This document shows, piece after piece, positions 9,163 through 35,103 of a DNA stretch of 38,059 nucleotides; position 1 is the stretch's first letter; each line of letters opens with the position of its first letter. The stretch is from assembly GCA_021809425.1 (NCBI GenBank), contig JAKBAA010000018.1, forward strand, positions 9,055 through 47,113, given 5' to 3'. The translations under genes were made by a program, and so were the position numbers. The stretch comes from Actinomycetes bacterium (GTDB taxonomy: Bacteria > Actinomycetota > Acidimicrobiia > Acidimicrobiales > Bog-793). Below the pieces are notes generated by a model. The model saw only the letters and a program-made list of their open reading frames with translations. It was not told the DNA's origin and made no database searches.

Positions 9163-9183
9163 CCTGACTCCTCCTCTCGGGCG

Positions 9184-9189
9184 ATGGTA
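9184..9189 (-). promoter_or_regulatory. -10 element of the STAND gene
   Basis: TACCAT on the minus strand, about 22 bases upstream of the ATG with the ribosome-binding site between. A weak -35 (TTGGCG) stands 15 bp upstream. The same TACCAT hexamer serves the divergent HTH gene. Confidence 0.4.
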
Positions 9190-9215
9190 GGAGCAGGGTG
9201 CGACCGCCAACCCGA

Positions 9216-9253
9216 ACGTCCGGGGACGTCGGGCATCGTCGGGGGACGTCCGG
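9216..9253. repeat. Four 10-bp direct repeats, probable operator array
   Basis: ACGTCCGG, ACGTCGGG, TCGTCGGG and ACGTCCGG start at 9216, 9226, 9236 and 9246, exactly one helical turn apart. Two further related sites, ACGTGGGT and ACGTCGGA, lie at 9315 and 9335, 20 bp apart. The array sits between two divergent genes that encode almost identical HTH domains, upstream of both promoters. Confidence 0.65.
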
Positions 9254-9354
9254 AGGGGGCCCGGCCGGGGCCCGGCCTGGGCCGGACCGGGGCCCGACCT
9301 CGCAAACCCCCTGGACGTGGGTGATCTTCGGACAACGTCGGACGGGAACGGCCG

Positions 9355-9383
9355 GTGACGGCGGCCACCCTGCCCCGTACCAT
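9355..9383 (+). promoter_or_regulatory. Promoter of the 97-aa HTH gene
   Basis: GTGACG (9355-9360), a 17-bp spacer and TACCAT (9378-9383) precede a leader of about 20 bases that carries AAAGGA before the ATG at 9411. Spacing is ideal. Confidence 0.55.
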
Positions 9384-9410
9384 CGGGCAGCCCCCGTCAA
9401 AAGGACCGCG

Positions 9411-9704
9411 ATGATCGAGACGCATCCGCACGGACCGGAAGCCATCCGCAGCCGGCGCGACCTGGCGTGCGCCCTGACCGTCCTCCGGCTGAACGCCGGC
9501 CTGAGCGTGCGGGAGCTGGCCACGCGCCTCGACGTGCCGGTGGCCACCATCGGCGACTACTTCAGCGGCCGCCACCTTCCCGGGCCGTCCCGCTTCCCGC
9601 TGCTCCGCCGGGTGCTGGCCGAGTGCGGCGTGGTCGACGAGGTGGCCGCCCAGCGGTGGCTCCTGGCCGTGGCCGACCTCAAGCGGCGGCCGGCCGGCGC
9701 CTGA
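9411..9704 (+). CDS. Stand-alone HTH regulator, twin of the STAND protein's N-terminal domain
   Basis: A 97-residue protein that is essentially only an XRE/Cro-type HTH plus a C-terminal helix. RSRRDLACALTVLRLNAGLS, LATRLDVPVATIGDY and GRHLPGP align without gaps to the first 90 residues of the divergent STAND protein; VPVATIGDY and GRHLPGP are identical. It probably arose by duplication of that domain, or the reverse. Placement across a shared repeat array suggests that it regulates the STAND gene, its own gene, or both by competing for the same operators. It has a good -35/-10 and an AAAGGA ribosome-binding site. Confidence 0.85.
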   Translation: MIETHPHGPEAIRSRRDLACALTVLRLNAGLSVRELATRLDVPVATIGDYFSGRHLPGPSRFPLLRRVLAECGVVDEVAAQRWLLAVADLKRRPAGA

Positions 9705-10507: not shown

Positions 10508-13500
10508 TCAGTCAAGGAGTGCCCGGAGGTCGTCGGCGGCGAGGCGGGCCGAGGCGAAGGTACCGCCGTCGAGGACGCTGTCGAAGAGCTGGGCCTTGCG
10601 GTCCTTGAGGGCCATGACCTTGTCCTCGATGGTGTCGGCGGCGACGAGCCGGTAGACGAGGACCTTGCGGGTCTGGCCGATCCGGTGGACCCGGTCGACC
10701 GCCTGGGCCTCGGTGGCGGGGTTCCACCAGGGGTCGAGCAGGATGCAGTAGTCGGCCTCGGCCAGGTTGAGGCCGAAGCCGCCGGCCTTGAGGCTGAGGA
10801 AGAAGACGGGGGCGTCGCCGGTGCGGAACCGGGCGATCTCGTCGGCCCGGCGGCGGGTGCGGCCGTCGAGGTAGCAGTGGTCGATGCCGGCCGCCTGGGC
10901 CCGTGCACGGGCGGTGGCGAGGAAGCGGGTGAACTGGCTGAAGACGAGGGCACGGTGGCCGTCGGCGACGACCTCGTCGAGCATGTCGAAGAGGGCGTCG
11001 AGCTTGGTGGCGGGGATGCCGGCGTGGCGGTCGTCGACGAGGGCCGGGTCGAGGGCGGCCTGGCGGAGGAGGGTGAGGGAGCGGAGGATCTCGAAGCGGT
11101 TGCCGTCGACGTCGGCCAGCAGACCGAGAACCTTCTGGCGCTCCCGCTGCAGGTAGGTCTCGTAGAGCTTGCGGTGGCGCGGGTGGAGGTCGAGGCGGAC
11201 CACCTGCTCCTGCTTGTCGGGCAGGTCGGCGGCCACCTCCTCCTTGCGGCGGCGGAGCAGGATGGGGCGGACGCGGCGGCGGAGCTGGGTGAGCCGGTCG
11301 CCGTCGTGGTGGCGCTCGATGGGGGTTCGGTAGTGCTCGGCGAAGCGGTCGGCCCGGGGGAACAGGCCGGGGGCGGTGATGGCGGCGAGGGCCCACAGCT
11401 CGGCCAGGGAGTTCTCGAGTGGGGTGCCGGTGAGGGCCAGCTTGAACGGGGCGGGGATGCGCCGGATGCCCCGGTGGAGCTGGGTTGCCGGGTTCTTGAG
11501 GAACTGGGCCTCGTCGAGCAGGAGACCGGCCCAGCCGACGGCGGCGTACTCGTCGTGGTCGATGCGGGCGAGGGCGTAGGAGGTGACCACGATGCCGGCA
11601 CCGTCGGCCAGGGCGGCGAGCGGGACACCTCGGCGGGCGGCCGTCTGGGAGACGGCGACGACCGGGACGCCCGGGGCGAAGCGCTCGGCCTCGGCCACCC
11701 AGCCGGGGACGACGCTGGTCGGGGCGACCACCAGGAACGGGGCGGTCACCTGGAGGCGGTGGCGGGCATGGCAGATGAGGGCGAGCGCCTGGAGGGTCTT
11801 GCCGAGGCCCATGTCGTCGGCCAGGATGCCGCCGAGGCCGTGGGCGAACCGGGCGGCCAGCCACTGGAAACCTTCCACCTGGTAAGGGCGGAGGGTGGCC
11901 AGAAGGCCGTCGGGGAGGGGGAGCGGCGGGGCGTCGCCAGCGGCGGCCAGGGAGGCGACGGCGTCCGACCAGGCGCCCAGCTCGTCGCCGGTGGCACCCA
12001 GCTGGCGCAGGTCGTCCCACAGGCTGGCCTGGAACCGGCTGAGGCGGGCGGTGGCGCGGGGGCTGTCGTGGAGGGAGCGGGCCTCGGCGATGAGCTCGGC
12101 CAGGCGGGCCAGCTCGGGGCGGTCGAGGGACAGGATGGCGCCCGACGACAGCAGCAGGGTGGGGGTGCCGCTGGCGAGCGCCACGAACAGCTCGTGGAAC
12201 GGGACCGGCTCGCCCCCGACGGTGACCTCGACCGACAGGTCCAGCCAGTCCCCGTCGGCCGTCTCGGCACCGACCAGGCGGACCACCGGCGGCTGGTCGG
12301 CCTCACGGAAGTCCGGCCGCTCCCCCTGCTCGTCCAGGCGGAGCCCGTCGATGGCCCGGAGGGCCGGCAGCACCTCCAGGGCGAACCGGGCGGCGGCAAG
12401 ACCGGCCAGATCGGCCGAAGGGACCAGGCGGGGGCCCAACGGGGTGTCGGCGACCAGGCCGGGGGTGGCGGCGCACCGGTCGACGGCGGCCAGTCGGGCG
12501 GCGGCAGCCTCGAGGTCGGCCTCGCCGTCCACCGGACGGGCCGACGGGCCGAGGCCGAGCGACCAGCCGACGGCGACCGACGTGCCGTGCCAGTCCAGCC
12601 GCAGCACCAGCTCCTCCTGGACCACCTCGGGCAGCCCCACCGACCCGTCCCCGGAGCACACCGGCAGCCGGCGGCGAAGGGCCGGGTACAGGGACTCCCA
12701 GAACCGGTCGAGGTCGCCGGCCGGGATCCGGATGGCGCCGGCCCGCAGCAGCTCGGCCAGGCCGTTGTCCACGGCGACGGCCAGCGGGGCCAGCGCCAGG
12801 CTGGTGGGGCCTGGGCCGTTTGCGGGGCCTGGGCCGTTGGCGGGGGCGCGGCCGCGGCCGTTGGCGGGGGCAGGGGCGCCGGCTGGCGGGCGCTCGACCG
12901 GGTCGCCGGTCCACCAGGCGATGCCGTGGGCGGGCCGGCCGAGGAGGAGGGCCCGGTCGAGGGCGATGGCGTCGCCGTCGGCCCCGAGGCGGGGGTGGAG
13001 GACGAGGCCGGGGCCGTCGCGCCGGGCGTCCAGCAGGACTGGCACCGGCTCGACGTGCAGGTCGACCGGCTCGGCGCTGCGGCCGACCTGGAGGAGCGGC
13101 ATGGCCAGCTCGCCGGCCTGGCGCAGCAGGTCCCACAGGCGGCGTGACCCGAACGACTCGAGCCAGACCACGTCCTCGCCGTAGGGGGACCAGGTGCGGC
13201 TGGCACCGAGGCCGTGCAGGGCACGCAGCTCACGCAGCAGCTCCAGCTGCTGGCGGCGCAGCGGGGTCGAGGCGCTGTAGCCGAGGTAGTCGAGGCGCGA
13301 CCACGAGATCCCGGTGCGCACCCAGCTGCCGTTCGCCCGCCGGACCACCGGGCGCACCCGGATGCCCGGGCCGGCCACCCCGTTGCGGCGGCTGGCCGGA
13401 GCGGAGGCCACCAGCTCGAGCTGCAGCCCGAGCGCCCCCTCCCCGCTCGGGCCCGGGCCGGGGGCAACCGGCTCGGCGATGGCCTGGCGCAGCATGGCCT

Positions 13501-13879
13501 CCCAGCCGTGGCCTGCTGCCGGCCCGCCAGCGGGCGGGGTGGCAGCGGGCGGGGTGGCAGCGGGCGGGGTGGCAGCGGGCGGGGTGGCGAGCAGGAGGGC
13601 GACCACGTGCTTGCAGTTGAAGCCGACCGGGCAGCTGCACCGGCCGGCCACCGACGTCAGGCAACCGCCCGGGCCGGGGCCGTCTCGGTCGACCCGGACG
13701 GTGACGGCGTAGGGGCGCAGGCCGCTGCCGGCGACCTCGCCGGCGAGGACGAGGCCGGCGCCGTCCCAGTGGGCGTGGCCGACGGCACCGTTGCGGGCGT
13801 ACGCCTCCCCCCGGGCGACCGTGCGGGGGTCGAGCAGGCGCTCGAGCCGAGCCACGTCGGTGGTGCCGAGGGCGGCCAT
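10508..13879 (-). CDS. SWIM zinc-finger SNF2-family DNA helicase/translocase
   Basis: A 1123-residue protein. The N-terminus has a SWIM finger (C81-x-C83, C89-x-H91 in GRCSCPVGFNCKHVV). A long middle region contains a bacterial SNF2 accessory domain. The C-terminal half is the SF2/SNF2 motor: motif I DDMGLGKT near 686, motif II DEAQ near 789, LTGTPLENS, and motif VI VDRVHRIGQTRKV near 1066. Such proteins are ATP-driven double-stranded DNA translocases; the bacterial SWIM-SNF2 subfamily has no settled role. The ATG at 13879 lacks a Shine-Dalgarno but has TACCGT seven bases upstream, so the mRNA is probably leaderless. Four ATPPA repeats directly follow the zinc finger. Confidence 0.95.
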   Translation of the reverse strand: MAALGTTDVARLERLLDPRTVARGEAYARNGAVGHAHWDGAGLVLAGEVAGSGLRPYAVTVRVDRDGPGPGGCLTSVAGRCSCPVGFNCKHVVALLLATPPAATPPAATPPAATPPAGGPAAGHGWEAMLRQAIAEPVAPGPGPSGEGALGLQLELVASAPASRRNGVAGPGIRVRPVVRRANGSWVRTGISWSRLDYLGYSASTPLRRQQLELLRELRALHGLGASRTWSPYGEDVVWLESFGSRRLWDLLRQAGELAMPLLQVGRSAEPVDLHVEPVPVLLDARRDGPGLVLHPRLGADGDAIALDRALLLGRPAHGIAWWTGDPVERPPAGAPAPANGRGRAPANGPGPANGPGPTSLALAPLAVAVDNGLAELLRAGAIRIPAGDLDRFWESLYPALRRRLPVCSGDGSVGLPEVVQEELVLRLDWHGTSVAVGWSLGLGPSARPVDGEADLEAAAARLAAVDRCAATPGLVADTPLGPRLVPSADLAGLAAARFALEVLPALRAIDGLRLDEQGERPDFREADQPPVVRLVGAETADGDWLDLSVEVTVGGEPVPFHELFVALASGTPTLLLSSGAILSLDRPELARLAELIAEARSLHDSPRATARLSRFQASLWDDLRQLGATGDELGAWSDAVASLAAAGDAPPLPLPDGLLATLRPYQVEGFQWLAARFAHGLGGILADDMGLGKTLQALALICHARHRLQVTAPFLVVAPTSVVPGWVAEAERFAPGVPVVAVSQTAARRGVPLAALADGAGIVVTSYALARIDHDEYAAVGWAGLLLDEAQFLKNPATQLHRGIRRIPAPFKLALTGTPLENSLAELWALAAITAPGLFPRADRFAEHYRTPIERHHDGDRLTQLRRRVRPILLRRRKEEVAADLPDKQEQVVRLDLHPRHRKLYETYLQRERQKVLGLLADVDGNRFEILRSLTLLRQAALDPALVDDRHAGIPATKLDALFDMLDEVVADGHRALVFSQFTRFLATARARAQAAGIDHCYLDGRTRRRADEIARFRTGDAPVFFLSLKAGGFGLNLAEADYCILLDPWWNPATEAQAVDRVHRIGQTRKVLVYRLVAADTIEDKVMALKDRKAQLFDSVLDGGTFASARLAADDLRALLD
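13530..13589 (-). repeat. 15-bp in-frame minisatellite in the SNF2 gene
   Basis: Four copies of gcgggcggggtggca (the last with one change) encode repeated Ala-Thr-Pro-Pro-Ala just after the SWIM finger, forming a flexible linker. Confidence 0.85.
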
Positions 13880-13892: not shown

Positions 13893-14001
13893 CCGGACCG
13901 GGCAGGCGGCCCTGTCGATCCCTGGCTCGCCCTGCTCCTCGTCAAGGGGTGGCTGCTGCTCGGCGAGGACGGCCGCTGGGCGTGCGGCGGCCGGGCCCCG
14001 C

Positions 14002-15057
14002 CTAGGAGCCGTCGCCGACGGTCACGGAAAGGGTGACCCCGGCGCCGGGCAGCGACAGCTGCTCGGCGAGGACGGTCAGCCGCCCCCGAGCCAGCTCCTC
14101 GACGTCGCCGCCAGCCGTGGCCGACGAGCGTTCCACGGTGAACCCCTTGGCCTCGAGCGTGCGGACGTACCCCGACAGCGCCGACCGGCTGGCCTCGTGC
14201 AGCTCCACGTACCACTTGGCAGGGCCGATCCGGGCGCTCGAGACGACCGACCCGGGCGGCGGGGGCACTGCCGAGGGGAACCCGGCCGGAAGCCCCGGCG
14301 CCGGCGCCACCGGTTGGGTGCCGGTCGGGACGGCCGGCAGCGGGGTGGCCTTCGGGGCACGGATCGTCCCGACCCCGCCGATCGCCTCGACCCGGAAGGT
14401 GGTGACCGCCCCCTTCAGGTGGTACGCCGCGGCGTCCGACCCGGACGGGACGCCGGCCGTGTACGACAGGAGGGCGCCCGACCGGTCGGCCACGCAGGCC
14501 GTGGCCGTCTCGAGCAGCAGCCCGGACGACGCTGCGGGCGTGGCCACGGCGTAGGTCGTCCCGGCGTCCCCGGCCACGTGGCAGGCGCCCTTGGTGGTGA
14601 TCCGGATGCCGGCCACGTGGGTGTAGCCGATCAGCCCCTCGGCGGCGGTGCGCTCGCCATCCAGGTGGGACAGCCCGTCGGGCGAGCGGAACGTGACCGG
14701 CACGACCCGCCCGAGCACCACGGCGTACCCCCGGCCACCCACGTCGTAGGTGGTCTCCCGGACCGGCATGGTCGCCTCCACCTCCCAGTCCTCCGGGCCG
14801 TGGACCGTGCCGGTCAGCGCCAACCGGTAGCCGCCGTTCGACGCCGTCGAGGTGAACCGGTAGCTCGTCAGGCTCCCGAGCGCCCCCAGGTCGAGCCGGT
14901 GGGCCACCCCGGGGCCGAGGCGACCGGCGGCAGCCCCGCCTCCCGAGCGGACGGACGCTCCGGCGACGCCGACCCCTGCCGCCAGCCCTGCCGCCAGCCC
15001 TGCCGCCAGGCTGGCAGGAAGGCAGACGACGGCGAGGGTTGGCAGCGGTTGTGGCAT
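14002..15057 (-). CDS. Secreted protein of unknown function
   Basis: A 351-residue protein with an N-terminal signal peptide (MPQPLPTLAVVCLPASLAAG followed by repeated Ala-Gly-Leu). The mature part has beta-rich segments such as LTSYRFTSTASNGGYRLALT, a TTYDVGGRGYAVV segment, a middle Pro-rich linker (about 230-265) and a C-terminal segment with WYVELHEASRSALSGYVRTL and TVERSSATAGGDVEELARGR. The overall shape recalls LppX/LolA-type lipid-carrier domains, which is only an impression. The ATG at 15057 is preceded by GGAGGAG. It lies on the same strand as the SNF2 gene, with 122 bases between them. Confidence 0.7.
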   Translation of the reverse strand: MPQPLPTLAVVCLPASLAAGLAAGLAAGVGVAGASVRSGGGAAAGRLGPGVAHRLDLGALGSLTSYRFTSTASNGGYRLALTGTVHGPEDWEVEATMPVRETTYDVGGRGYAVVLGRVVPVTFRSPDGLSHLDGERTAAEGLIGYTHVAGIRITTKGACHVAGDAGTTYAVATPAASSGLLLETATACVADRSGALLSYTAGVPSGSDAAAYHLKGAVTTFRVEAIGGVGTIRAPKATPLPAVPTGTQPVAPAPGLPAGFPSAVPPPPGSVVSSARIGPAKWYVELHEASRSALSGYVRTLEAKGFTVERSSATAGGDVEELARGRLTVLAEQLSLPGAGVTLSVTVGDGS

Positions 15058-15252
15058 CCTGACGCTCCTCCGACGGCCGCTTCGACGGCGGCAGGCCGAG
15101 CTGGCCGGCCACTGCGGCCGGCCACTGCGGCCGGGCCTCTGCCGGCAGCGTAGCCACGGACCCTCTCGACCGGCGGTGCCCTCCGGGCGGATCGGGGCTC
15201 GCCTATGGTGCGGACGATCCAGGGCGGCAGCCGAGCGCGGGAGGGGACAGCG

Positions 15253-16104
15253 ATGGCCGATGACGGCTCGGGAGCGCGTGCGAGCGGCGGTGGCCCGGTG
15301 AGCGCCGAGCAGCGCCACTGGAACGACCCCGGCTGGGCGGCCTCGTGGCCGAGGCGGGAGCGGCTGACGTCGGAGGTGACCGGCACCCTGCTCGACCACC
15401 TCGGCCCGGTGGCCGGCGAGCGGGTGCTCGAGGTCGGCTCGGGCGGCGGGACGGCCACGTTCGCCCTTGCCGATCGCGTCGGGAGCGGCGGGTCGGTGGT
15501 CGCCGTCGACGTGTCCGTTCCGCTGTGCGACCTGGCTCGCAGCCGGGCCGGCGAGCGGGGGATCGACAACGTCACCTTCGTCGTGGCCGACGCCCAGCGG
15601 GCCGACATCCCGGGCGGTCCGTTCTCGGCAGCGGTCAGCCAGTTCGGGGTGATGTTCTTCGACGACCCGGTGGCCGCCTTCGCCAACCTGCGCGCCCACG
15701 TCGCCGGCGGGGCGCCGCTCGCCTTCGCCTGCTGGCGCTCCCCGGCGGACAACCCGTGGATGGTCAACGCCACCGTGGCCGCCTTCTCGGCCGCCCCGCC
15801 GGCGCCACCCCCCGGTCCGGGGGTGCCCGGACCGTTCGCCTTCGCCGACACGGCCGCCACCCTCGCCCTGGTCGGGGCGGCTGGCTGGCAGGCCGCTCGG
15901 GCGACGCCGTGCGACGTCGCCGTCGAGGTCGACGAGGAGGTGCTGTTCGACGAGTCCTTCCTCCACGTCGCCGGCGTCCCCGAGGAGCGGGTCGGCCAGG
16001 CGGTCGAGGCGGTCCGTGCCAAGCTCGCCCCGCTCGCCCGGCCGGGCGGCCGCTACGAGGTGCCGCTCGCCTTCCAGGTCGTCACCGCCGTCGCCCCGGC
16101 CTGA
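15253..16104 (+). CDS. Class I SAM-dependent methyltransferase
   Basis: A 283-residue protein of the UbiE/Methyltransf_25 type. Motif I is VLEVGSGGGTATFALA at about 58-73. The acidic ribose-binding position appears in VVAVDVS. VTFVVADAQRADIP and AVSQFGVMFFDDPVAAFANL are the usual post-I and motif II regions. The C-terminal third (from FADTAATLALVGAAGW) resembles the lid of small-molecule methyltransferases. The ATG at 15253 is preceded by GGGAGGGGAC; a TATGGT element at 15204-15209 may be its -10. The substrate is unknown. Confidence 0.9.
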   Translation: MADDGSGARASGGGPVSAEQRHWNDPGWAASWPRRERLTSEVTGTLLDHLGPVAGERVLEVGSGGGTATFALADRVGSGGSVVAVDVSVPLCDLARSRAGERGIDNVTFVVADAQRADIPGGPFSAAVSQFGVMFFDDPVAAFANLRAHVAGGAPLAFACWRSPADNPWMVNATVAAFSAAPPAPPPGPGVPGPFAFADTAATLALVGAAGWQAARATPCDVAVEVDEEVLFDESFLHVAGVPEERVGQAVEAVRAKLAPLARPGGRYEVPLAFQVVTAVAPA

Positions 16105-16132
16105 CCGGCCCGCAGCGGGCGACCAGCTGGGG

Positions 16133-16591
16133 TCAGCAGCCCGGAGCGAGGCCGAGCCGGCGAGCGACGGTGCCGGGCGGCTCGGCGAGGCCGGCACCGA
16201 GGAGCTCGCGGTCGGCGCTGACCAGCACGACACCGAGGCTGGCGGCGGCGGCGGCCCAGCAGGCGTCGTAGAAGGTGAGGCGCCGGTCGGCGCCGAGCAG
16301 GGCGGCCCGGCGAAGCCAGTCGGTCGACATGGCGAGCGGGGCGCCGCAGATGGCCACGAGGTCGTCGAGCTGGTCGGCCACGTCGGCCCCGTCCCAGCCG
16401 AGGCGCCGGAGCAGGACGTTGCCGGTCTCGTAGAGCGCCAGGTCAAGCATGCGCGCCTCGATCGCCCCGGCCTGTGTGGCGTCCCGCAACGCTCGGGCCT
16501 CGTCGACCTCGGACTCGCCGGATGCGTGGAACCACTTCAGCAGCACCGACGTGTCCACCAGCAGCGAGGTAGGGGGCGGCAGCGAGGTCAC
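16133..16591 (-). CDS. vapC: VapC-type PIN-domain ribonuclease toxin
   Basis: A 152-residue PIN protein retaining the four acidic catalytic positions: Asp13 (LVDTSVLLKW), Glu55 (LYETGNVLL), Asp109 (TFYDACWAAAA) and Asp127 (LVSADREL). These toxins cleave tRNA or rRNA when freed from the antitoxin. The GTG start at 16591 overlaps the antitoxin stop (GTGA), so translation is coupled and antitoxin-first. It converges with the methyltransferase gene, with a 28-base gap. Confidence 0.9.
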   Translation of the reverse strand: MTSLPPPTSLLVDTSVLLKWFHASGESEVDEARALRDATQAGAIEARMLDLALYETGNVLLRRLGWDGADVADQLDDLVAICGAPLAMSTDWLRRAALLGADRRLTFYDACWAAAAASLGVVLVSADRELLGAGLAEPPGTVARRLGLAPGC

Positions 16592-16824
16592 CGGGCTCGA
16601 TCGCGGTCCTGTCGGACGAGCGTGGCCGACTCGAAGGATCCGGCACGGCGGAAGCGGTCCTCCGACCGACGGATGGCGGCTGCGACGGCATCGGGATCGG
16701 GTCGGACGAGCTCGCGCCGTGCGGCGGCGGCCAGGAAGGCGCTCCGGCTGGTCGAGCGGGAGCGGGCGGCGGCGTCGACCGCTCGGAGGAGCTCGTCGGG
16801 CAGGGACACCATCACCTTGGCCAT
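16588..16824 (-). CDS. vapB: VapB-type ribbon-helix-helix antitoxin
   Basis: A 78-residue protein. The N-terminus MAKVMVSLPDELLRAVDAAA followed by RSTSRSAFLAAAARREL is the ribbon-helix-helix DNA-binding fold. The C-terminal 35 charged residues would wrap the toxin. It immediately precedes vapC with a 4-base overlap. TATACT stands six bases upstream of the ATG, so the transcript is probably leaderless; the protein most likely autoregulates here. Confidence 0.88.
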   Translation of the reverse strand: MAKVMVSLPDELLRAVDAAARSRSTSRSAFLAAAARRELVRPDPDAVAAAIRRSEDRFRRAGSFESATLVRQDRDRAR

Positions 16825-16830
16825 ACCAAG

Positions 16831-16836
16831 AGTATA
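16831..16836 (-). promoter_or_regulatory. -10 element of vapBC
   Basis: TATACT on the minus strand is followed by six bases and the ATG of vapB, with no Shine-Dalgarno. It lies in the 94-base divergent gap shared with operon A-E, which also holds an imperfect inverted repeat (CCGCCGG ... CCGGCGG). Confidence 0.6.
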
Positions 16837-16906
16837 GCCGCCGGTGCTGCCGCGAGCGGCCCGGCGGAGCGGGCAGCTGCACCGACCCCGGAGGCACCGG
16901 GTTGGC

Positions 16907-16912
16907 TAACGT
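16907..16912 (+). promoter_or_regulatory. -10 element of operon A-E
   Basis: TAACGT, then six bases, then the GTG of gene A. No Shine-Dalgarno is visible. This predicts a single leaderless transcript for the five-gene operon. Confidence 0.5.
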
Positions 16913-16918
16913 CGGGCC

Positions 16919-18820
16919 GTGTGGCGCGAGCCCTGCCGCCCTCGGCGGCGACAGGAGGAGGCGGACGGGCCACTGCTCGGGCAGGCGCTGTGGGTGGGTG
17001 GCGTCCTCGACCAGCCGGGGCGGGCCGCCCTCCGGCGGGCGCTCGCCGGTCGGGTCGACGAGGCGGCGGCGCTCGAGAGGGTCCCGGTGGCAGACCACGG
17101 CGTCGGTGGGCTCGTGCGAGGGGCGCTCGGGGAGGCGCTGCCGGGCCAGCTCGACCGGCTCCGCTCGACCCGGGCCACGCTGCTCCGACTGTTCCCCGGG
17201 TCGGCGCTGGCGCCCGACGGGGAGGTCACCTCGCTCGACCTGGGCCGGCAGGGGACGGCAGCGCTGTCCAAGGTGGGATGGACACGCTGGTCCGACCTGG
17301 TCGACCGGCCGGTGCGGAGCATCCTGTCGCTGCCCGGCGTCGGTGGGCAGGCCGCCAGCAGGCTGCTCGAGTCGTGCTTCGCCCGCAGCCTCGCCACCGT
17401 CGTCGACACCTGGGCATCGGACCCGGCGGCAGGCGACCTCGGGGTCGTCCTGCGCCACGAGCGGGGTGAGGCAGGCCAGCCGGTCCTCGAGGCCCTGCTC
17501 GAGCGCTGGAGCGGGGACGGACCGCCGGCCGCCGGCGAGGCCGCCGGGCGCCTGCTCGAGGCGGCAGCCCCGTGGGCGCTCGATGCCGGGGGTGCCCTGT
17601 CGACCCTGCTGACGGCCGCCGGCGACGAGCGAAGCAGGATGGTCTTTGCCGCCCTCTGCCTGCCGAGGGGGTCCCGGCCGGCCGCCGGGGAGCTGGCGAT
17701 CGGGCTCGGGGTCTCCGGGGCGCGGGTGCTGCAGCTGCGCGACCGAGCCGAGGCCCGTGTCCGGGACGCCCTCGGCACCGCCCCGTTCGCCACCCGGTGG
17801 CTGGTCGCCAGCCTGGCCCGGCGGCTCGGGCCGGTGGCGGCGGAGGAGCGGGCCATGCGCACCCTCGGCCGGCTGGGCGTGGGCGATCCTCGGGGCGATC
17901 CTGGGGCAGCCGACCTGGCGCTGTTCCTGGCCGGCCCCTACCACGAGGTGGCCGGCCGGCCCGGCTGGCTGGCGACCGACCCGAGGTCGCTCGTGGCGAC
18001 GACCACCGCCGGCCTGCAGGCCGACGGGGGGGTCCGACCGCTGGCCGACCTCGCCGGTGAGCTGGCCGCCGCCGGCGTCCGCCCCGACGAGCTCGAGGCG
18101 TGGCTGACCTCGTCGGGGGCGGCCGTCGCCCACGAGCTCGCCGTCCAGGCGACCGGTCCGCTGGCCGACGCCGTCGAGCGGATCCTCGACGCCCACGGCT
18201 CGGCCCGGTCCGCCGACGACCTCGCCGCCGACCTGGCCCGCGCCGGCCGGGCCGTCGACCCGGGCACGTTGGCGCGCCTCGGCGGTCACCGCCGCTTCCG
18301 GATGGCCGACGGGGCGCTGTCCCTCGCCTGCTGGGGGGCCGGCGGCCCGGCCATCCCGAGCGGCCCGGCCCCGCCGGTCCGGCCAGCGGGGAGCGACCGG
18401 GCCGGGCGGCGCGAGCAGACGGCCCCGGCGGCCCAGACGGCCCCGGCGGGCGAGCGGCAGTGGCTGGCGGTGCCGGTCGACCACGACGTGCTGCGGGGCT
18501 CGGAGGGGCCGGTGCCGGTGACGCTCGTCGACGACCTCGGCATGGCACGGCGCACCCGGCGGACGTTCTCGAGCCGGTTCGGACCGGTCGCCCTCTCCTA
18601 TGATGCGCCGGACCCGGCCAGGGGCTCGGTCCGGGCGGTCGCCCTGGCGACCGGGGCCCAGGCAGGCGACACGCTGGTGCTGGGGTTCGCCAGGGCCGGC
18701 GACGTCACCGTCGAGGTGCGCCGGGCCGCCGCCGGCGAGCGGGCCGGCGAAGGCGACAGGGTGACGGCCGCGGGCAGACGACCGGGAACGACCGAGACGG
18801 CAACCGGAGGGGCATCGTGA
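16919..18820 (+). CDS. Operon gene A: protein with RNAP alpha-CTD-like and sigma-4-like segments
   Basis: A 633-residue protein that I cannot assign to a named family. Residues about 104-152 (VTSLDLGRQGTAALSKVGW, then WSDLVDRPVRSILSLPGVGG) match the helix-hairpin-helix pattern of the RNA polymerase alpha C-terminal domain. Residues about 238-287 (RSRMVFAALCLPR, AAGELAIGLGVSGARVLQLR) match the HTH of sigma region 4. The middle is helical with no clear signature. After a TAPAAQTAPAG linker, residues about 510-610 form a beta-rich terminal domain (DTLVLGFARAGDVTVEVRR). DNA binding is the inferred role, perhaps target recognition or regulation. It is the first gene of the operon, starts at a GTG with a leaderless promoter, and overlaps gene B by 4 bases. 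Confidence 0.85.
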   Translation: MWREPCRPRRRQEEADGPLLGQALWVGGVLDQPGRAALRRALAGRVDEAAALERVPVADHGVGGLVRGALGEALPGQLDRLRSTRATLLRLFPGSALAPDGEVTSLDLGRQGTAALSKVGWTRWSDLVDRPVRSILSLPGVGGQAASRLLESCFARSLATVVDTWASDPAAGDLGVVLRHERGEAGQPVLEALLERWSGDGPPAAGEAAGRLLEAAAPWALDAGGALSTLLTAAGDERSRMVFAALCLPRGSRPAAGELAIGLGVSGARVLQLRDRAEARVRDALGTAPFATRWLVASLARRLGPVAAEERAMRTLGRLGVGDPRGDPGAADLALFLAGPYHEVAGRPGWLATDPRSLVATTTAGLQADGGVRPLADLAGELAAAGVRPDELEAWLTSSGAAVAHELAVQATGPLADAVERILDAHGSARSADDLAADLARAGRAVDPGTLARLGGHRRFRMADGALSLACWGAGGPAIPSGPAPPVRPAGSDRAGRREQTAPAAQTAPAGERQWLAVPVDHDVLRGSEGPVPVTLVDDLGMARRTRRTFSSRFGPVALSYDAPDPARGSVRAVALATGAQAGDTLVLGFARAGDVTVEVRRAAAGERAGEGDRVTAAGRRPGTTETATGGAS

Positions 18821-19641
18821 CGAACCTGGCGAGGAGCGACCGGCGCACCGGGGGGACCGGCGGGGAGGCGAGCCTCGAGGAGGCCCTGCGGGCGGTCGAG
18901 CTCGACGCCGACGCGGCGCTGAAGGCCCTCGGGGCGGCGCTGCGGGCGGCCAAGCGGGCCAAGCTGGCGGCGGCGACCGGCCAGGTGCGCGACCTGCAGG
19001 TGGCGATGGAGGCGGCCGTGGCGCTCGCCGGCGAGGCGACCGGGGCGGCGGCGGCGCTCCGGGACGGGTGGACCTTCGACGTGGCCGGCTGGATCTCGTC
19101 GGGCGCCTACGCCAAGGAGCTGCTGGCGGCGGCGGCCGAGGCCGGGGTGAAGGCGTTCGAGTCGGACGAGCGGATCCTGTGCTACCCGGCCGTCGTCCAG
19201 GTGTCGGCGAGCGACGCCACGGTGGCGGTTGACAAGCGGAAGGACCGGCGGATCCGGCCGTCGGTCGTGGTACGAGCCCTCGGCGCCCTCCAGCAGCGGC
19301 CGCCGGCGTTCAAGGCGGACGCCTTCATCGAGAGCCTGGCCACCGCCTACCAGCTGGTGGTGGCCGACAAGGGGCTCCGCCCGGGCGGGCCCGCCCGGCT
19401 GGTAGAGGTGCACAAGGTGCTCACCCTGCTCCCCGGGGCGGCCCGTGACTACACCCGCCAGGAGTTCGCCCGGGACATCTACCTGCTCGACCAGAGCGGC
19501 ATCGTCGAGACGAGGGACGGCCGGCGGATGACCCTGCCGGCGAGCGCCATGACGAGGGGGTCCGGCGTCCTGACCACGGTGACCAAGGCGGGCCAGACCA
19601 AGGTGTACGTCGGGGTCGCCTTCGCCGGGGGGTCGGCATGA
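18817..19641 (+). CDS. Operon gene B: helical protein with possible C-terminal winged helix
   Basis: A 274-residue protein of unknown family. Residues 18-85 are continuous Ala-rich amphipathic helix (EEALRAVELDADAALKALGA), probably coiled coil. A short strand region follows (ILCYPAVVQVSASDATVAVD, KRKDRRIRPSVVVRAL). The C-terminal third (YTRQEFARDIYLLDQSGIV, then RRMTLPASAMTRGSGVLT) looks like a winged helix. The architecture suggests an adaptor or DNA-bridging subunit rather than an enzyme, as no catalytic motif is visible. GTG start with GGAGGGG upstream; GTGA overlap with A and ATGA overlap with C imply fixed stoichiometry. Confidence 0.85.
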   Translation: MTNLARSDRRTGGTGGEASLEEALRAVELDADAALKALGAALRAAKRAKLAAATGQVRDLQVAMEAAVALAGEATGAAAALRDGWTFDVAGWISSGAYAKELLAAAAEAGVKAFESDERILCYPAVVQVSASDATVAVDKRKDRRIRPSVVVRALGALQQRPPAFKADAFIESLATAYQLVVADKGLRPGGPARLVEVHKVLTLLPGAARDYTRQEFARDIYLLDQSGIVETRDGRRMTLPASAMTRGSGVLTTVTKAGQTKVYVGVAFAGGSA

Positions 19642-20591
19642 TCGCCGTTCGGGACTACCTCGAGACGCTCGACGGGGAGTACGTGTCGGACTACGTGGCC
19701 TCCGGTGGGGCGGCCGTCAAGTTCGTCGTGCCGGCCGACGAGGAGGCGGCGGCCACCTTCCTCGACGGGCTGTCGGGGGCGGCCGGTCGGGCCGGCTACC
19801 TGATGGCCTCGGTGGACGCCGCCGAGACCCGGGTCCACCTGCTCGACCAGGTCTTCACCGAGGTGGCCCGCCAGGTCGACTGGGACGAGCTGGCCGGCGT
19901 CGCCGCCAGGTCGGCGGCGGCAGCCGCCGGCTACCCGGTGCCGGCCGGCGCAACCCTGGCGGTCGAGCAGCTGGCCGCCCACCACCGGGTCGAGGCCGGC
20001 GAGCTGAAGCGGGACGTCGACCGCCAGCTGCAGGCACGGGTGCACCAGGACTACGCCATGGTCCAGGAGCTCCGCACCGCCATGCTCCGGCTGTGCCAGG
20101 CCCAGCTGCACACCGGCCAGGTGGCCGAGGCCGAGCACGCCGCCATCCTCGACTGGCTGCGGGGCGACCTGCGCCAGATGTCCGCCCTGCGCTCGTCGCT
20201 GATCTTCCGGCGGATCGGCCGGCACAACGCCCGGCAGCTGCTGTTCTCGCTGGCCCACTGGCTGTCGGTCAACGACCGGGCCGGGCTCGTGCTCGTGCTC
20301 GACCTCCGCCGCCTCGGCTACGCCCGCCGCCCGAGCCCGGAGGAGCGCCAGGGCCTGTACTACACGAGGGCGGCCCTGCTCGACGCCTACGAGGGGCTGC
20401 GCCAGCTGGTCGACAACACCGACGAGATGGCCAACCTGCTCGTCGTCGCCGTCGCCTCGCCGGCCTTCCTGTCGGACCCCGGGCGAGGGCTCGACGCCTA
20501 CCAGGCGCTGAAGCTGCGGATCTTCGACGAGGTGCGCGACGTCAACCGGGACAACCCGCTGTCGTCGCTCGTCCGGGTGGGGGCGACGTGA
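19638..20591 (+). CDS. Operon gene C: Walker-degenerate relative of the DUF2791/BrxD ATPase
   Basis: A 317-residue protein. By eye it follows the plan of the next gene. SGGAAVKFVVP stands where gene D has the P-loop GGGFGSGKSH. GYLMASVDAAETRVHLLDQV parallels FVVSKVVISKETPLYDPVKL. AGLVLVLDLRRL parallels AGWVVLLDEAEL. So the P-loop has lost its GSGKS form and the Walker B Glu is gone. It would be a non-catalytic partner, possibly forming a hetero-oligomer with D. The C-terminal DAYQALKLRIFDEVRDVNRD is well ordered. The paralogy is my alignment by eye and needs a profile comparison. ATGA and GTGA overlaps couple it to B and D. Confidence 0.8.
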   Translation: MIAVRDYLETLDGEYVSDYVASGGAAVKFVVPADEEAAATFLDGLSGAAGRAGYLMASVDAAETRVHLLDQVFTEVARQVDWDELAGVAARSAAAAAGYPVPAGATLAVEQLAAHHRVEAGELKRDVDRQLQARVHQDYAMVQELRTAMLRLCQAQLHTGQVAEAEHAAILDWLRGDLRQMSALRSSLIFRRIGRHNARQLLFSLAHWLSVNDRAGLVLVLDLRRLGYARRPSPEERQGLYYTRAALLDAYEGLRQLVDNTDEMANLLVVAVASPAFLSDPGRGLDAYQALKLRIFDEVRDVNRDNPLSSLVRVGAT

Positions 20592-21859
20592 GCGGCGGCG
20601 GCTCGCTCGAGGCGAGGCGCGCCCTCGAGGCGCTGCGGGCCGGCGTCCCCAACCGCGACGCCGTCGCCGTGCTCGGGTCGACCCAGCAGGGCGTGCGCGA
20701 CCGGTTCAGCGAGCTGACCGCCGCCGTCGCCGGCCTCCCCGAGGGACCGGCGCCCGGCGGGATGCTCATCGGCGGGGGGTTCGGCTCGGGCAAGAGCCAC
20801 GTGCTGGAGCACCTCGCCCACGTCGCCCTCTCCGGCGGGTTCGTCGTGTCGAAGGTGGTCATCTCCAAGGAGACCCCCCTTTACGACCCGGTCAAGCTCT
20901 ACCGGGCGGCCATCGAGCACGCCAAGGTGCCCGGGCGGCCGGGCTCGGCCATCGACGAGATCGTCGCCGGCCTCGACGTCGACTCGCAGCGCTACGCCGA
21001 CCTGTACCGCTTCGTCCACCAGGAGGACGGGCCGGTCGACAGCCGGTTCGGGGCGACCCTGTTCCTGTACGAGTACGCCCGAGGCGACGAGGAGTTCGCC
21101 GACCGCCTCGTCCGGTTCTGGGCGGGAGACCCGCTGCCGGTCGGCGACCTGCGCCGGCGCCTCAAGGAGGCCGGGGCGGCCGCCACCTACCGGCTGGGCG
21201 CCATCAAGGAGCGTGACCTCGCCCGGCACCGGTTCCGCTTCGTCGCCCGCCTCGTCCAGGCGGCCGGCTACGCCGGGTGGGTCGTCCTGCTCGACGAGGC
21301 CGAGCTGATCGGCCGGTACTCCGCCCTCCAACGAGCCCGCTCGTACGCCGAGATCGCCCGCCTGGTGCGCGGCGACCGCGACGACCCGGGCGCCCCGCTG
21401 TGCAGCGTGCTCGCCACCGTCGACGACTTCGAGGGCCAGGTGCTGGTCGGCAAGAACGACATCGAGCTGATCGGCAAGCGGCTCCGCTCCCGGGGCACCA
21501 CCGAGGACGACGTGCTGGCCGCCCAGGCCGAGACCGGCATGCGGATCATCGAGCGCGAGCAGGTCCAGCTCCAGCCACCCGGTCGGGACGAGCTCGACCG
21601 CCTGTACGCCCGGCTCAAGACCATCCACGCCGACGCCTACGGCTGGCAGCCCCCCGACGTCCCCGGCCTCGAGCGGCTGCCGTCCAACCGGATGCGCCAG
21701 TACGTGCGCGCCTGGATCAACGAGTGGGACCTGCGCCGCCTCGATCCCTCCTACCAGCCGCACCTGTCGGTCGACCAGCTCGCAGTCGACCTCGCCACCG
21801 ACCCGGACGCCGGCGAGCCGGCCGCCGGCGAGGGGGACGGCGAGGGCAGATCGGCCTGA
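20588..21859 (+). CDS. Operon gene D: DUF2791 / BREX-type ATP-binding protein (BrxD-like)
   Basis: A 423-residue P-loop ATPase of the family called BREX system ATP-binding domain. The N-terminus ARRALEALRAGVPNRDAV, Walker A GGGFGSGKSH (62-71), SKVVISKETPLYDP (about 89-102) and Walker B VVLLDEAELIGRYS (about 232-245) followed by RARSYAEIARLV are characteristic. In BREX type 2 loci BrxD accompanies a helicase (BrxHI). Here it also precedes a helicase, but no BREX methyltransferase, PglZ, PglW or PglY is nearby. ATPase activity is inferred from intact motifs. The GTG start overlaps the gene C stop; gene E begins five bases downstream. Confidence 0.92.
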   Translation: MSGGGSLEARRALEALRAGVPNRDAVAVLGSTQQGVRDRFSELTAAVAGLPEGPAPGGMLIGGGFGSGKSHVLEHLAHVALSGGFVVSKVVISKETPLYDPVKLYRAAIEHAKVPGRPGSAIDEIVAGLDVDSQRYADLYRFVHQEDGPVDSRFGATLFLYEYARGDEEFADRLVRFWAGDPLPVGDLRRRLKEAGAAATYRLGAIKERDLARHRFRFVARLVQAAGYAGWVVLLDEAELIGRYSALQRARSYAEIARLVRGDRDDPGAPLCSVLATVDDFEGQVLVGKNDIELIGKRLRSRGTTEDDVLAAQAETGMRIIEREQVQLQPPGRDELDRLYARLKTIHADAYGWQPPDVPGLERLPSNRMRQYVRAWINEWDLRRLDPSYQPHLSVDQLAVDLATDPDAGEPAAGEGDGEGRSA

Positions 21860-21864
21860 CGGCG

Positions 21865-23403
21865 ATGCTCGCCGACGAGCTGGTGCGGGTGCTGGCGAAG
21901 CCGGGCGGGATGACCGCCGCCGAGCTCGCCGTGGCGGTGGCCGTCGACGAGGAGGCGGTGGTGGTCACCCTGCATGCCGCCCACGACCGGTTCCGCTGCG
22001 ACCGGGGCTCGCCGTCGCGGTGGTGGCTGGCGGCCGGCCCGGTGCGGGGCACCGCTCGGACGGGGAGGGAGCCGGGACGGCAGCCGGCCAAGCTGGTCGG
22101 GCTGCACGCCTGGCAGGCAGATGCCCTCGCCGCCTGGGCCGCCCAGGGCCACCGCGGCGTGGTCGAGGCGGTCACCGGGGCGGGCAAGACGATGGTGGGC
22201 ATCGCCGCCGCCCTCGAGGAGCTGGGCCGGCGCGGCCAGGTGGTGGTGCTCGTCCCGACGGCCGAGCTCCAGCGGCAGTGGGTCGCCGAGCTGTCCTGCC
22301 GCCTGCCCGACGGCGCCCGGGTGGGGCAGCTCGGCGCCGGCTCGGGCGACCGCCTGGCGAGCTGCGACGTGCTCGTCGCCGTGGTCAACAGCGCCCGTGC
22401 CGGCGACCTCCGGCCGGTTCGCCGCGGTGGGCTGCTCGTGGCAGACGAGTGCCACCGGTACGGAAGCACCGTCAACCAGATGGCGCTCGACCGCCGCTTC
22501 TCTCGCCGGCTCGGCCTGAGCGCCACGTACGCCCGGGACGACGGCGGCAGCCGGACCTTCCTCGACCCCTACTTCGGCGGGGTGTGCTTCCGGCTCGGCT
22601 ATGCCCGAGCCGTCGCCGACGGGGTGACCGCCCGGTTCAGCGCCACCCTCGTCGGCGTGCGCTTCTCGGACGAGGAGCAGGCCGGCTACGACGACCTGAC
22701 GGCGGCCATGGCGAAGGCACGAGCCCGGTTGCTCGCCCAGCACGGCGTGGTGCCAGAGCCGTTCGAGGCGTTCCTCCGGGCCGTCGTGGCGCTGGCCGAC
22801 GGCAACGGCCCCGGCAGCCGGCTGGCCCGGACGTACCGCCAGGCGATGCTCGAGCGGCGCCGGCTGCTCGCCGACACCCCGGCCAAGGAGGCGGCCCTCG
22901 TCCGCCTCGCCCCGGCCGTCGAGGCGGCCGACCGCGCCCTCGTGTTCACCCGGAGCATCGCCGGCAGCGAGCGTGCAGCGGCCCTGCTCGCCGTGTGCGG
23001 GCTGCGGTCGGGCGTCGTCCACTCGGCCCAGCCCGCCGGCGAGCGGCGAGCGGCCCTCCAGCAGTTCGCGGCGGGAGCGCTCGACGTGCTGGCGGCACCC
23101 CGGGTGCTCGACGAGGGTGTCGACGTGCCGGCCGCCGATCTCGCCGTGATCGTCGGCGCCAGCCGGTCCCGCCGCCAGATGGTCCAGCGGATGGGGCGCG
23201 TCCTGCGCCGAAAGCCGGACGGCCGGACGGCCCGCTTCGCCGTGCTCTTCGTCGAGGGCACCGTCGAGGACCCCCGGCGGGGCGCCCACGAGGCGTTCCT
23301 CGGGGAGATCCTCGACGTCGCCGAGGCGACCACCTGCTTCCCGGCAACCCTCGCCCAGGCCACCCCGGCCGTCGTGCTCGCCTCGCTCCGCCCCGACCAG
23401 TAG
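21865..23403 (+). CDS. Operon gene E: SF2 DEAD/DEAH-box helicase
   Basis: A 512-residue helicase of the XPB/UvrB-like SF2 group. Residues 1-60 resemble a winged helix ([20 protein letters not shown]). Motif I is AVTGAGKTM (102-110), motif Ia [14 protein letters not shown], motif [12 protein letters not shown] near 191, motif III LGLSAT near 217. The C-terminal lobe has [21 protein letters not shown] and motif [12 protein letters not shown] near 441. It probably unwinds or remodels DNA for the operon. Its ATG follows the gene D stop by five bases without an obvious Shine-Dalgarno, so coupling is likely. It is the last gene of the operon. Confidence 0.93.
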
Positions 23404-23456
23404 CCGACCCCGTAGCCGACCCGCAGCTGGGCCTGGAGCCGGGCCGGTGACCGGCG

Positions 23457-23633
23457 GACCTCGTGGAGCATCTCCGGGACGCCCTCCATCAGGTCGTGCC
23501 GGGTCAGCATCTGGCCGGCCGCCGAGGAAAGGGCGGCAACCCCGGTGCCGTGGCGGGCCCCCTCGAGGACGAACGACGACAGGAGGGCGACCGCCTCCGG
23601 GCGGTTCGGCTGCGCGCCACCCAGCTGGTCGCC
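23457..23633 (-). pseudogene. ureA: Urease gamma subunit (ureA) remnant
   Basis: The minus strand encodes about 55 residues of clear urease gamma sequence: [18 protein letters not shown], then [20 protein letters not shown] and [10 protein letters not shown]. Intact UreA has about 100 residues. The N-terminal third is absent, with an in-frame TAG at 23634-23636 just before the remnant. After MLHEV the usual ATFPDGTKLVTVHDPI tail is replaced by unrelated sequence up to the end of helicase gene E. No ureB or ureC follows. It is therefore a two-ended fragment and cannot encode a functional subunit. Confidence 0.8.
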
Positions 23634-23781
23634 CTAGCTCCGCCGTCACTCGACCGACGGTGGCAGGCGTCGTCGGGCCGGGTTGGCAACAGACCGTCCA
23701 CGACCGGCGCCACCGAGCGAGTGGCGCGAACGGGGCGGCGGGTGTCCCAGACGGCAAGCCAGGGCGGCCTAGCGTGGCGCG
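23634..23781 (+). promoter_or_regulatory. Intergenic region with -10 element of the ABC exporter
   Basis: No gene is visible here. The relevant element is TAGCGT at 23770-23775, six bases before the GTG of the ABC ATPase, which fits a leaderless start. The rest of the stretch shows no recognisable feature. Together with the ureA remnant and a short region at 23404-23456 containing a repeated gtagccgaccc, it fills the 378-base gap between genes. Confidence 0.45.
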
Positions 23782-24753
23782 GTGACCGACCAGACGGGCG
23801 CAGGCGCTGCCGGCATCATCCACACCGAGCAGCTGACCAAGGTCTACCCGCGCGCCGAGGTGGCCTCGGTCGACCGGCTCGACCTCGACGTGACGGCCGG
23901 CGAGATCTTCGGGCTGCTCGGCCCGAACGGCGCCGGCAAGACGACGACGGCCGGCATGCTCACCACCCGGGTGGTGCCGACCTCCGGGCGGGCGCTCGTC
24001 GGGGGGGTGGACGTCGCCGCCCACCCGGCCCTCGTCAAGCAGCTGACCGGAATCGTCTCCCAGCAGAACACGCTCGACCGCCAGCTGACCGTCTGGGAGA
24101 ACCTGTACTACCACGGCCGGCTGTTCGGGATGGGGGCGCCGGCCTCCCGGCGGATCGCGAGCGAGCTGCTCGAGCAGCTCCAGCTGGGCCGGTGGGCGAA
24201 AGCCTCGGTGTACGCCCTGTCCGGCGGGATGGCCCAGCGGCTGATGGTGGCCCGGGCGATCTTCCACCGGCCGGCCGTCCTGTTCCTCGACGAGCCCACC
24301 GCCGGGCTCGACCCGCAGAGCCGGCTCGCCCTGTGGGAGATCCTCGAGCAGCTCCACGAGGACGGCCAGACGATCCTTTTGACGACCCACTACATGGAGG
24401 AGGCCGACCAGCTGTGCGACCGGGTGGCCGTGATGGACCACGGCAGGATCCTCGCCCTCGACACGCCGGCCGAGCTGAAGCGCCAGCTCGGGACGGACAC
24501 CGTCGTGTCGGTGCGGGCCAGCGGTGACCTCGAGGCGCTCGGCGAGCGGCTCGCCGGGGAGGTGGGCGGGATCACCGGGCGGCGGGTCAGCGACGGGGTG
24601 CTCCAGCTCCACCTGCGCGACGCCCACCGGCCGATCCCGCAGATCGTGCTGGCAGCCGAGCGCAACGGGTTCGAGCTGGCGGACATCTCGGTGGCCGAGC
24701 CGACCCTCGAGACCGTGTTCATCAGCCTGACCGGAAGGGAGCTACGCGACTGA
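23782..24753 (+). CDS. ABC exporter ATP-binding protein (DrrA-like)
   Basis: A 323-residue ABC ATPase of the ABC-2 exporter class. Walker A GPNGAGKTT lies near 48, the Q-loop is in GIVSQQNTLD, the signature LSGGM near 147, Walker B VLFLDEPTAGLDP near 168 and the switch His in LLTTHYMEEADQLCDR. The C-terminal 80 residues are the accessory domain typical of DrrA/CcmA-type proteins. GTG start with a leaderless promoter. It overlaps the permease start by one base (TGATG), so the two are co-expressed. The exported substrate is unknown; lipids or small hydrophobic drugs are usual for this class. Confidence 0.95.
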   Translation: MTDQTGAGAAGIIHTEQLTKVYPRAEVASVDRLDLDVTAGEIFGLLGPNGAGKTTTAGMLTTRVVPTSGRALVGGVDVAAHPALVKQLTGIVSQQNTLDRQLTVWENLYYHGRLFGMGAPASRRIASELLEQLQLGRWAKASVYALSGGMAQRLMVARAIFHRPAVLFLDEPTAGLDPQSRLALWEILEQLHEDGQTILLTTHYMEEADQLCDRVAVMDHGRILALDTPAELKRQLGTDTVVSVRASGDLEALGERLAGEVGGITGRRVSDGVLQLHLRDAHRPIPQIVLAAERNGFELADISVAEPTLETVFISLTGRELRD

Positions 24754-30728: not shown

Positions 30729-31043
30729 TCAGCAGTCGGCCAGGGCGCGCAGCGAGCTGCACATCTCACTTCGCCGGGGTCCCAGGGAGCCGATCCGGGC
30801 GACCAGGGCGGACCGCCGGACCCGCTGCAGGTTGTCGAACGAGGCGACGCACTCGACGGCCAGCCCCTCGTCGGCACCCAGGTGCACCTCGGTCGGGATG
30901 TGGCGCACCGTACGGCTCACCGGGGCCGCCACGATGCCGGCGAGCACCGGGGCGGCCTCGCTGCGCGTCACCACCAGCACCGGACGCCGCTTGTCCTCCG
31001 CCTCGGCCCACCAGATCTCCCCCTGGGCCGGCGTTGCTACCAC
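30729..31043 (-). CDS. MazF/PemK-type endoribonuclease toxin without visible antitoxin
   Basis: A 104-residue protein. QGEIWWAEAEDKRRPVLVVT is the MazF N-terminal signature (G-x-I-W with the following R-P-V-L-V-V), and VSRTVRHIPTEVHLGADEGL carries the conserved T/S and the strand leading to the active site. MazF toxins cut mRNA at short motifs. The expected small MazE antitoxin upstream is missing. Instead the GTG start overlaps the 3' end of a PLD-like gene by seven bases. Either that protein, a distant antitoxin or residual activity explains tolerance. Confidence 0.88.
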   Translation of the reverse strand: MVATPAQGEIWWAEAEDKRRPVLVVTRSEAAPVLAGIVAAPVSRTVRHIPTEVHLGADEGLAVECVASFDNLQRVRRSALVARIGSLGPRRSEMCSSLRALADC

Positions 31044-31990: not shown

Positions 31991-31997
31991 GGCGACG

Positions 31998-32003
31998 AGG
32001 CTA
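31998..32003 (-). promoter_or_regulatory. -10 element of the PLD-mazF pair
   Basis: TAGCCT on the minus strand, seven bases before the ATG at 31990, with no Shine-Dalgarno. Confidence 0.45.
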
Positions 32004-32108
32004 CGCAGCGGGTACCTCATCGAGCACGACATGGCACGGCACGGCACACGGCGCACGGCGCCCCGGCGAGGCGATGACCTCTGCGGTGCCGGCCGGGGGC
32101 AGGCTGGG

Positions 32109-33602: not shown

Positions 33603-33608
33603 TCGGGA

Positions 33609-33614
33609 AGCGTA
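33609..33614 (-). promoter_or_regulatory. -10 element of Ig-repeat gene 1
   Basis: TACGCT on the minus strand, six bases before the GTG at 33602. A GTGAC/GTCAC dyad at 33614-33630 overlaps its upstream edge. Confidence 0.45.
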
Positions 33615-33643
33615 GTGACCGGTTCTGTCACGGGATGGGCATT

Positions 33644-33661
33644 GTTGCCCTTCTGGGCAAC
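33644..33661 (-). terminator. Hairpin terminator after Ig-repeat gene 2
   Basis: GTTGCCC and GGGCAAC form a perfect 7-bp stem with a 4-nt loop, 48 bases after the stop of gene 2 on the minus strand and before the promoter of gene 1. It is followed by AAT only. Confidence 0.6.
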
Positions 33662-33708
33662 TTCGGGGCGGCGCCACAGCTGGCGCACAGGAACGCCCCG
33701 GGCGGGGG

Positions 33709-35013: not shown

Positions 35014-35022
35014 CGTTCGTGG

Positions 35023-35066: not shown

Positions 35067-35103
35067 TCGCTCGACGAGAGGACCTACCGGGTGGTACCGG
35101 CTA

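Follow-up and report, generated by a model that had tools for sequence, protein, structure and literature searches.

To our knowledge, ATPases of the BrxD type are found repeatedly in BREX and Shango, and there is no consensus on what they do. Shango consists of a TerB protein (SngA), an ATPase (SngB), and a helicase (SngC), and it is a tested antiphage system (PMC10250203). In the accessible part of its text, a BREX survey of January 2026 proposes a role for BrxD in loading or activating its helicase, and it describes three winged helices, an inactive STAND domain, and a domain like the RNAP alpha-CTD in the C-terminal half of PglW (PMC12839542). PbeABCD is the CxC-ABC/DndE system (PMC6459918; revised in PMC10853773). 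No operon like the one described here was found in the accessible part of the BREX survey (PMC12839542), and recent lists of defence systems were covered in part.

The operon lies in a window of 38,059 nucleotides, which is the whole stretch of actinobacterial DNA that was analysed. Its five genes are all on the plus strand: A (16919..18820; approximately 600 aa) for a predicted multi-domain DNA-binding protein, B (18817..19641; 274 aa) for a protein matching no known family, C (19638..20591) for a BrxC/BrxD (ORC/Cdc6)-family protein lacking Walker A, D (20588..21859) for a BrxD-type ATPase with intact motifs, and E (21865..23403) for an SF2 helicase. Codon statistics favour 16994 as the start of A. 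The open reading frames overlap by 4 bases at A/B, B/C, and C/D, and the gap between D and E is 5 bases. The order A-B-C-D-E and the strand are kept in 13 other actinobacterial genomes (14 with the window). Twelve of these 13 copies are on a single contig (L012-L018, L062-L065, and L069), and that of G375 is split across two contig ends, one with A-B (L068) and the other with C-D-E (L029). Because the five genes recur in identical order and strand in the 12 single-contig loci and in G375, the arrangement is more than chance, and the A-E operon is a genuine, non-random unit. An earlier note on this DNA had proposed that the genes act together; its coordinates and overlaps hold, and the co-occurrence in order that it left to be counted is borne out by these genomes.

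The pairwise-identity matrices of B, C, D, and E correlate across the 14 genomes (r 0.79-0.85). All nine strong A matches among 248 genomes of the order sit within the operon, and wherever the contig permits a check, matches to B and C fall in the operon or in a B-C-D core (discussed below). Homologues of A, B, or C serving as housekeeping genes apart from D and E, which would have spoken against a common system, were thus not encountered among the checkable matches. PADLOC and NCBIfam hold no model covering A or B, so none of their defence models accounts for all five genes. Damage is seen in some copies: E is broken in L016, L069 has an interrupted A, and L032 has broken C and D and no recognisable B.

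Both C and D match PF10923 (BrxC_BrxD) above its gathering cut-off of 22.2 bits, C with an E-value of 1.7e-11 (44.2 bits, profile positions 43-324) and D with 1.9e-22 (80.3 bits). Among PADLOC models, C matches SngB (9.8e-5), and D matches SngB (5.6e-8) and BrxD (4.4e-15), as expected for the BrxD-type ATPase that the earlier note had recognised in D. The Walker A motif of D (GGGFGSGKS, residues 62-70; 20771..20797) has G66, G68, and K69 invariant in homologues, and D236 and E237 of its Walker B motif (VVLLDE; 21281..21298) are likewise invariant. Walker A is absent from C across the aligned homologues, and C is presumed to be an inactive ATPase. Because C and D belong to the same family and only D has Walker A, the operon appears to hold an inactive/active ATPase pair. 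A C-to-D profile comparison was uninformative because the alignments were shallow; it was dropped, and the shared Pfam family was used in its place. Thus, of the three proteins at first regarded as unassignable, C now has a family, whereas B still has none; A has domain matches but no Pfam family for the whole protein.

E matches ResIII, Helicase_C, and ERCC3 in Pfam, which agrees with its first description as an SF2 helicase. Its best score against the PADLOC helicases is with PbeA (1.1e-59), followed by BrxHI (1.3e-10) and SngC (0.0047), and its match to XPBII reaches 7.8e-43. The alignment covers residues 245-624 of the 672 residues of PbeA, which is the helicase part. E has a short N-terminal HTH-like region followed by the helicase core, and a search for a nuclease domain in E found none; no nuclease or other obvious effector was found in the A-E operon as a whole. 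By these matches, E is assigned to the XPB/PbeA type of SF2 helicases and not to BrxHI. Because E is nearer to PbeA/XPB than to BrxHI, the E-D pair appears to be analogous to the BrxD-BrxHI pair of BREX type 2, not identical to it. The pairing with BREX type 2 suggested in the earlier note therefore stands for a BrxD-type ATPase next to an SF2 helicase, but not for E as BrxHI. Directly 3' of E in G408 is a gene for a 642-aa SEC-C-motif protein (L030:3898-5826, minus strand), a possible extra member of the operon.

In distant genomes, B-C-D are retained together and A and E are gone. In L077, L078, L079, and L081, B-C-D is followed by X (approximately 186 aa, with no assigned family) and then by an SNF2 helicase fused to an Mrr nuclease domain. 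In L082, D is followed by this SNF2-Mrr gene, and the L080 sequence stops after X. The Pfam Mrr_cat scan covered L078 and L081, of which the other SNF2-Mrr motors are close homologues. Four of the five SNF2-Mrr motors have an intact nuclease D..QxK motif; in L079, it is degraded. We designate the A-E type as subtype I and the SNF2-Mrr type, which comes from another actinobacterial class, as subtype II. Other arrangements comprise an SNF2 motor with no recognisable nuclease motif and no X beside it (L038), a B-C-D set with a broken C divergent from a DrmD-like helicase (L033), and B-C-D without a visible motor (L031, at a contig end, and L037). In L034, a DEDDh (RNase_T) exonuclease domain stands ahead of the B homologue in one open frame (7979-9493, plus strand), which is possibly a natural B-nuclease fusion. 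As judged from these sequences, B-C-D is a portable core, and of the sequence evidence for its possible role as a DNA-motor loader or adaptor, the motor swap is the strongest. Both L031 and L037 have an aldehyde dehydrogenase close to B-C-D; this was set aside as a coincidence, as match strength and orientation differ between the two loci.

The AF2 model of B (pLDDT 90.6) has a long helical hairpin, an alpha/beta middle part, and a C-terminal winged helix. Comparison with the PDB and viral structures gave no significant fold match, and B is thus a confidently predicted fold that appears to be structurally new.

A is predicted to consist of a sigma-region-4 HTH, further winged helices, and a B3/EcoRII-N-type domain (AF2 model, pLDDT 76.9). 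Its N-terminal third is variable between homologues. A profile of 16 A homologues matches region 4 of RpoH, RpoS, and SigA in the PDB (best E 3.8e-8), placing a sigma-70 region-4-like HTH at 17627..17776, and Pfam Sigma70_r4 was found in five of eight A family members. This match supports the earlier mention of a DNA-binding-type protein with transcription-machinery-like domains. A winged-helix part resembling HARE or RNAP delta is tentatively placed at 18161..18328, where the profile weakly matches the RNAP delta subunit (E 0.049) and the model has helices and a beta-wing. Signs of an RNAP alpha-CTD-like part are weak. In Foldseek, the C-terminal domain is similar to the B3 domains of the plant proteins VRN1, ARF1, and VAL1, and to the N-domain of the restriction enzyme LlaJI.R1 (probability approximately 1.0, E 0.02-0.1; TM by target approximately 0.5 for the single-domain targets). 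We placed this putative DNA-binding pseudobarrel by topology at residues 514-601 (18458..18721) because that is the sole beta-rich stretch of its size in the model; the B3/EcoRII-N-like part is also the best-conserved region of A.

The sigma region-4 HTH and the possible alpha-CTD would suit a role in transcription control, with A as a sigma-like factor and B-C-D-E remodelling promoters. Nevertheless, Pfam and PDB profile searches found no sigma region 2 in A, the distant B-C-D genomes yielded no A homologue, and the SNF2-Mrr partner of the core points to DNA cutting, so that we regard transcription control as highly improbable. The protein at the A position in L038 was considered as an A homologue and rejected, with no detectable homology. 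Of the 58 genomes matched by the A profile, most gave only short hits confined to the HTH region, and these hits were not counted as A. A distant A-like protein of approximately 686 aa is encoded in L067 (232-2286, minus strand), on a contig without B-C-D-E. L066 has a perfect duplication of approximately 5.9 kb (1-5923 and 13979-19901; the copies lie approximately 14 kb apart and flank a serine recombinase), which carries an A-like protein and two unknown genes without B-C-D and is either real or an assembly artefact.

Six distant B-C-D loci are located beside defence-type genes, as a raw, uncontrolled tally. L038 has a type IV REase (PADLOC 4.8e-274), SoFic (3.8e-75), and a DUF4268 protein as neighbours; L080 has a ZacC-like protein (1112 bits); L077 has a Dsr1-like protein and a type IIG-like methyltransferase; L079 has a TOTE primase-helicase; L034 has a helicase-nuclease with Mokosh- and Cas4-like parts; and L033 has its DrmD-like helicase. 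This defence-island setting is provided by the SNF2 subtype together with two further distant B-C-D loci. The neighbours of the subtype I loci, including the window, are mostly metabolic genes with some toxin-antitoxin pairs. In the window, PIN (16133-16558) and RHH (16588-16824) genes, both on the minus strand, form the VapBC pair already seen by the earlier note, just upstream of A and divergent from it. L065 has a HipA homologue (11948-13258) beside the operon. Among the subtype I neighbours, only these toxin-antitoxin genes (VapBC and HipA) are suggestive of defence. The phage-defence role first proposed is thus favoured by the distant relatives, with the SNF2-Mrr subtype in defence islands, but not by the neighbours in the window. 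A decayed gene reported at one edge could not be established; the open reading frame at 23447-23785 has no family match. Elsewhere in the window, three adjoining frames (32109-36561, minus strand) share a match to a single Ig-like/peptidase A4 protein region of L013, and a phospholipase D-like protein (31037-32020) adjoins them.

The operon is patchy, occurring in approximately 1-8% of genomes depending on the survey. With C as the query, 60 genomes yielded five strong relatives besides the window, and the C profile found six further genomes among 395 of the class and two among 396 of the phylum; in the class to which G510 belongs, the B profile found seven of 399 genomes, among them G510 itself. 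Within one genus, G021 carries the operon and G003 (96% complete) is without it. In the D tree, the family of the window is divided between two separate groups; G888, a genome of another family that is nearer to the window than G002, G018, or G020, lies within one of them. The patchiness and the D tree fit transfer and loss, with differential loss alone as the alternative. None of the tested flank proteins of the window was found at the operon edge elsewhere. The flanking gene at 10508-13879 (minus strand) encodes an SNF2 helicase with a SWIM zinc finger, which looks independent of the operon because G017 has a full-length ortholog and no operon. An empty-site test using this gene gave no clean empty site because the G017 ortholog sits in an unrelated neighbourhood.

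No relatives of B or C were found in 72,556 plasmids or in IMG/VR, and none of C in 50,697 phage records. Because the phage, plasmid, and viral-contig collections gave no match, mobility is deduced from the distribution alone, and the operon has probably moved horizontally. Patchiness together with ORC-like ATPases, a DNA-binding protein, and a helicase could also indicate a module that an integrated mobile element uses for maintenance or partition/replication of its own DNA. The lack of matches in these collections, the annotated flanking genes, among which no integrase or relaxase was seen, and the fusion of the sister subtype motor to a nuclease make such a module quite improbable. The main rival to an anti-invader role is a DNA repair or replication-restart accessory, in which the XPB-like helicase would be loaded by the Orc/Cdc6-like ATPases at damaged or stalled host DNA. 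E resembles the DNA-repair helicases XPB and XPBII, ORC/Cdc6-type proteins are replication loaders, and the subtype I neighbours are mostly non-defence genes; however, the operon is patchy across close relatives and non-syntenic, its motor is swapped for an SNF2-Mrr nuclease, and the sister loci are beside defence genes. We therefore consider a repair or restart role unlikely.

The conserved order, the patchiness, the non-shared flanks, the motor swap, the defence neighbours of the distant loci, and the SngB and BrxD matches are consistent with a new, probably horizontally moving anti-invader system, whose B-C-D core would load a DNA motor. We assign this reading, in which defence is deduced from sequence comparisons, a probability of roughly 0.6. 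A would recognise DNA via its predicted HTH units and B3/EcoRII-N-type domain. C (dead) and D (active) would then join into a hetero-assembly that B scaffolds and clamps, and this assembly would spend ATP to place the helicase on the DNA recognised by A. Orc/Cdc6 loads replicative helicases, and we used it as the model for the C/D step; the role proposed for BrxD in the BREX survey (PMC12839542) lends independent support to such a mechanism. Finally, E would translocate and strip or block replication and transcription on the invading DNA. In subtype II, the last step is probably cutting because the motor is an SNF2 helicase fused to an Mrr nuclease. Because no protective modification gene is attached, the choice between self and non-self would have to rest on DNA sequence, structure, or foreign modification.

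More tentatively, at somewhat less than even odds, B-C-D may be the core of a class of anti-invader systems that has so far gone unrecognised. In it, a pseudo-/active ORC-type pair and a new scaffold would serve as a general motor loader, and self would be told from non-self without a DNA-modification enzyme. The interchangeable motors of such a class would include the XPB/PbeA-type helicase, the SNF2-Mrr nuclease, and perhaps a DrmD-like helicase or a B-fused exonuclease. As a compact set, the dead/active pair, the structurally new partner, and the swappable motor would allow the helicase-loader idea to be tested on five genes free of a methylation background, and a modification-free system would be added to the poorly explored actinobacterial defence repertoire.

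Compared with BREX type 2, the operon likewise has a BrxD-family ATPase adjoining an SF2 helicase, and its RNAP-like and winged-helix modules and inactive STAND/ORC protein resemble, as far as the accessible part of the survey describes it, the C-terminal half of PglW (PMC12839542). In contrast, BrxC, PglX, PglZ, and the PglW kinase/nuclease are missing, and the helicase is of the XPB/PbeA type, not the Ski2/Lhr-like BrxHI. A-E contain no BrxC/PglY, no PglX or PAPS reductase, no PglZ core, and no BREX modification gene, in agreement with the earlier note, and do not constitute BREX of any type. The BrxD family match and the partial resemblance of A and C to PglW might suggest a detached BREX type 2 accessory (BrxD, helicase, and PglW-like sensor parts) serving a BREX core elsewhere in the genome. 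Only one of the 14 carrier genomes has a convincing PglZ, which largely refutes this arrangement, and the accessory pair of BrxD and Lhr/Ski2-like BrxHI was rejected because D scores 56 bits against a BREX_BrxD equivalog cut-off of 350 and the best match of E is PbeA/XPB; we give the detached accessory only a very slight chance. The genome that contains the window has, outside it, a PglZ-domain match of 70 residues (G000:C176:9017-9217; 24-25.5 bits, barely above the cut-off), which is probably another phosphatase-like protein.

PbeABCD shares with the operon only the helicase part of PbeA, and the operon is without its HKD nuclease, CxC ABC ATPase, DndE, and phosphorothioate genes. DndC is absent from all 14 carrier genomes tested, and PbeABCD was rejected on these grounds. 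Shango also combines a BrxD/SngB-type ATPase with a helicase and a further protein, in few genes and without a modification enzyme. The operon differs in having two ATPase paralogues, one of them presumably inactive, in A and B, which have no Shango match, and in E, which is weakly SngC-like; Shango was set aside because A-E lack a TerB match and the SngC similarity is marginal. Zorya was rejected as well, with no ZorA, ZorB, or ZorC match in A-E or the scanned subtype II proteins and a ZorD-like motor in subtype II only. That motor is an SNF2 protein like ZorD, DpdE, and DISARM DrmD, and ZorD shares its C-terminal Mrr nuclease. However, the ZorA/B/C, Dpd, and Drm partners are unrecognised at most subtype II loci, where the B-C-D core is found instead.
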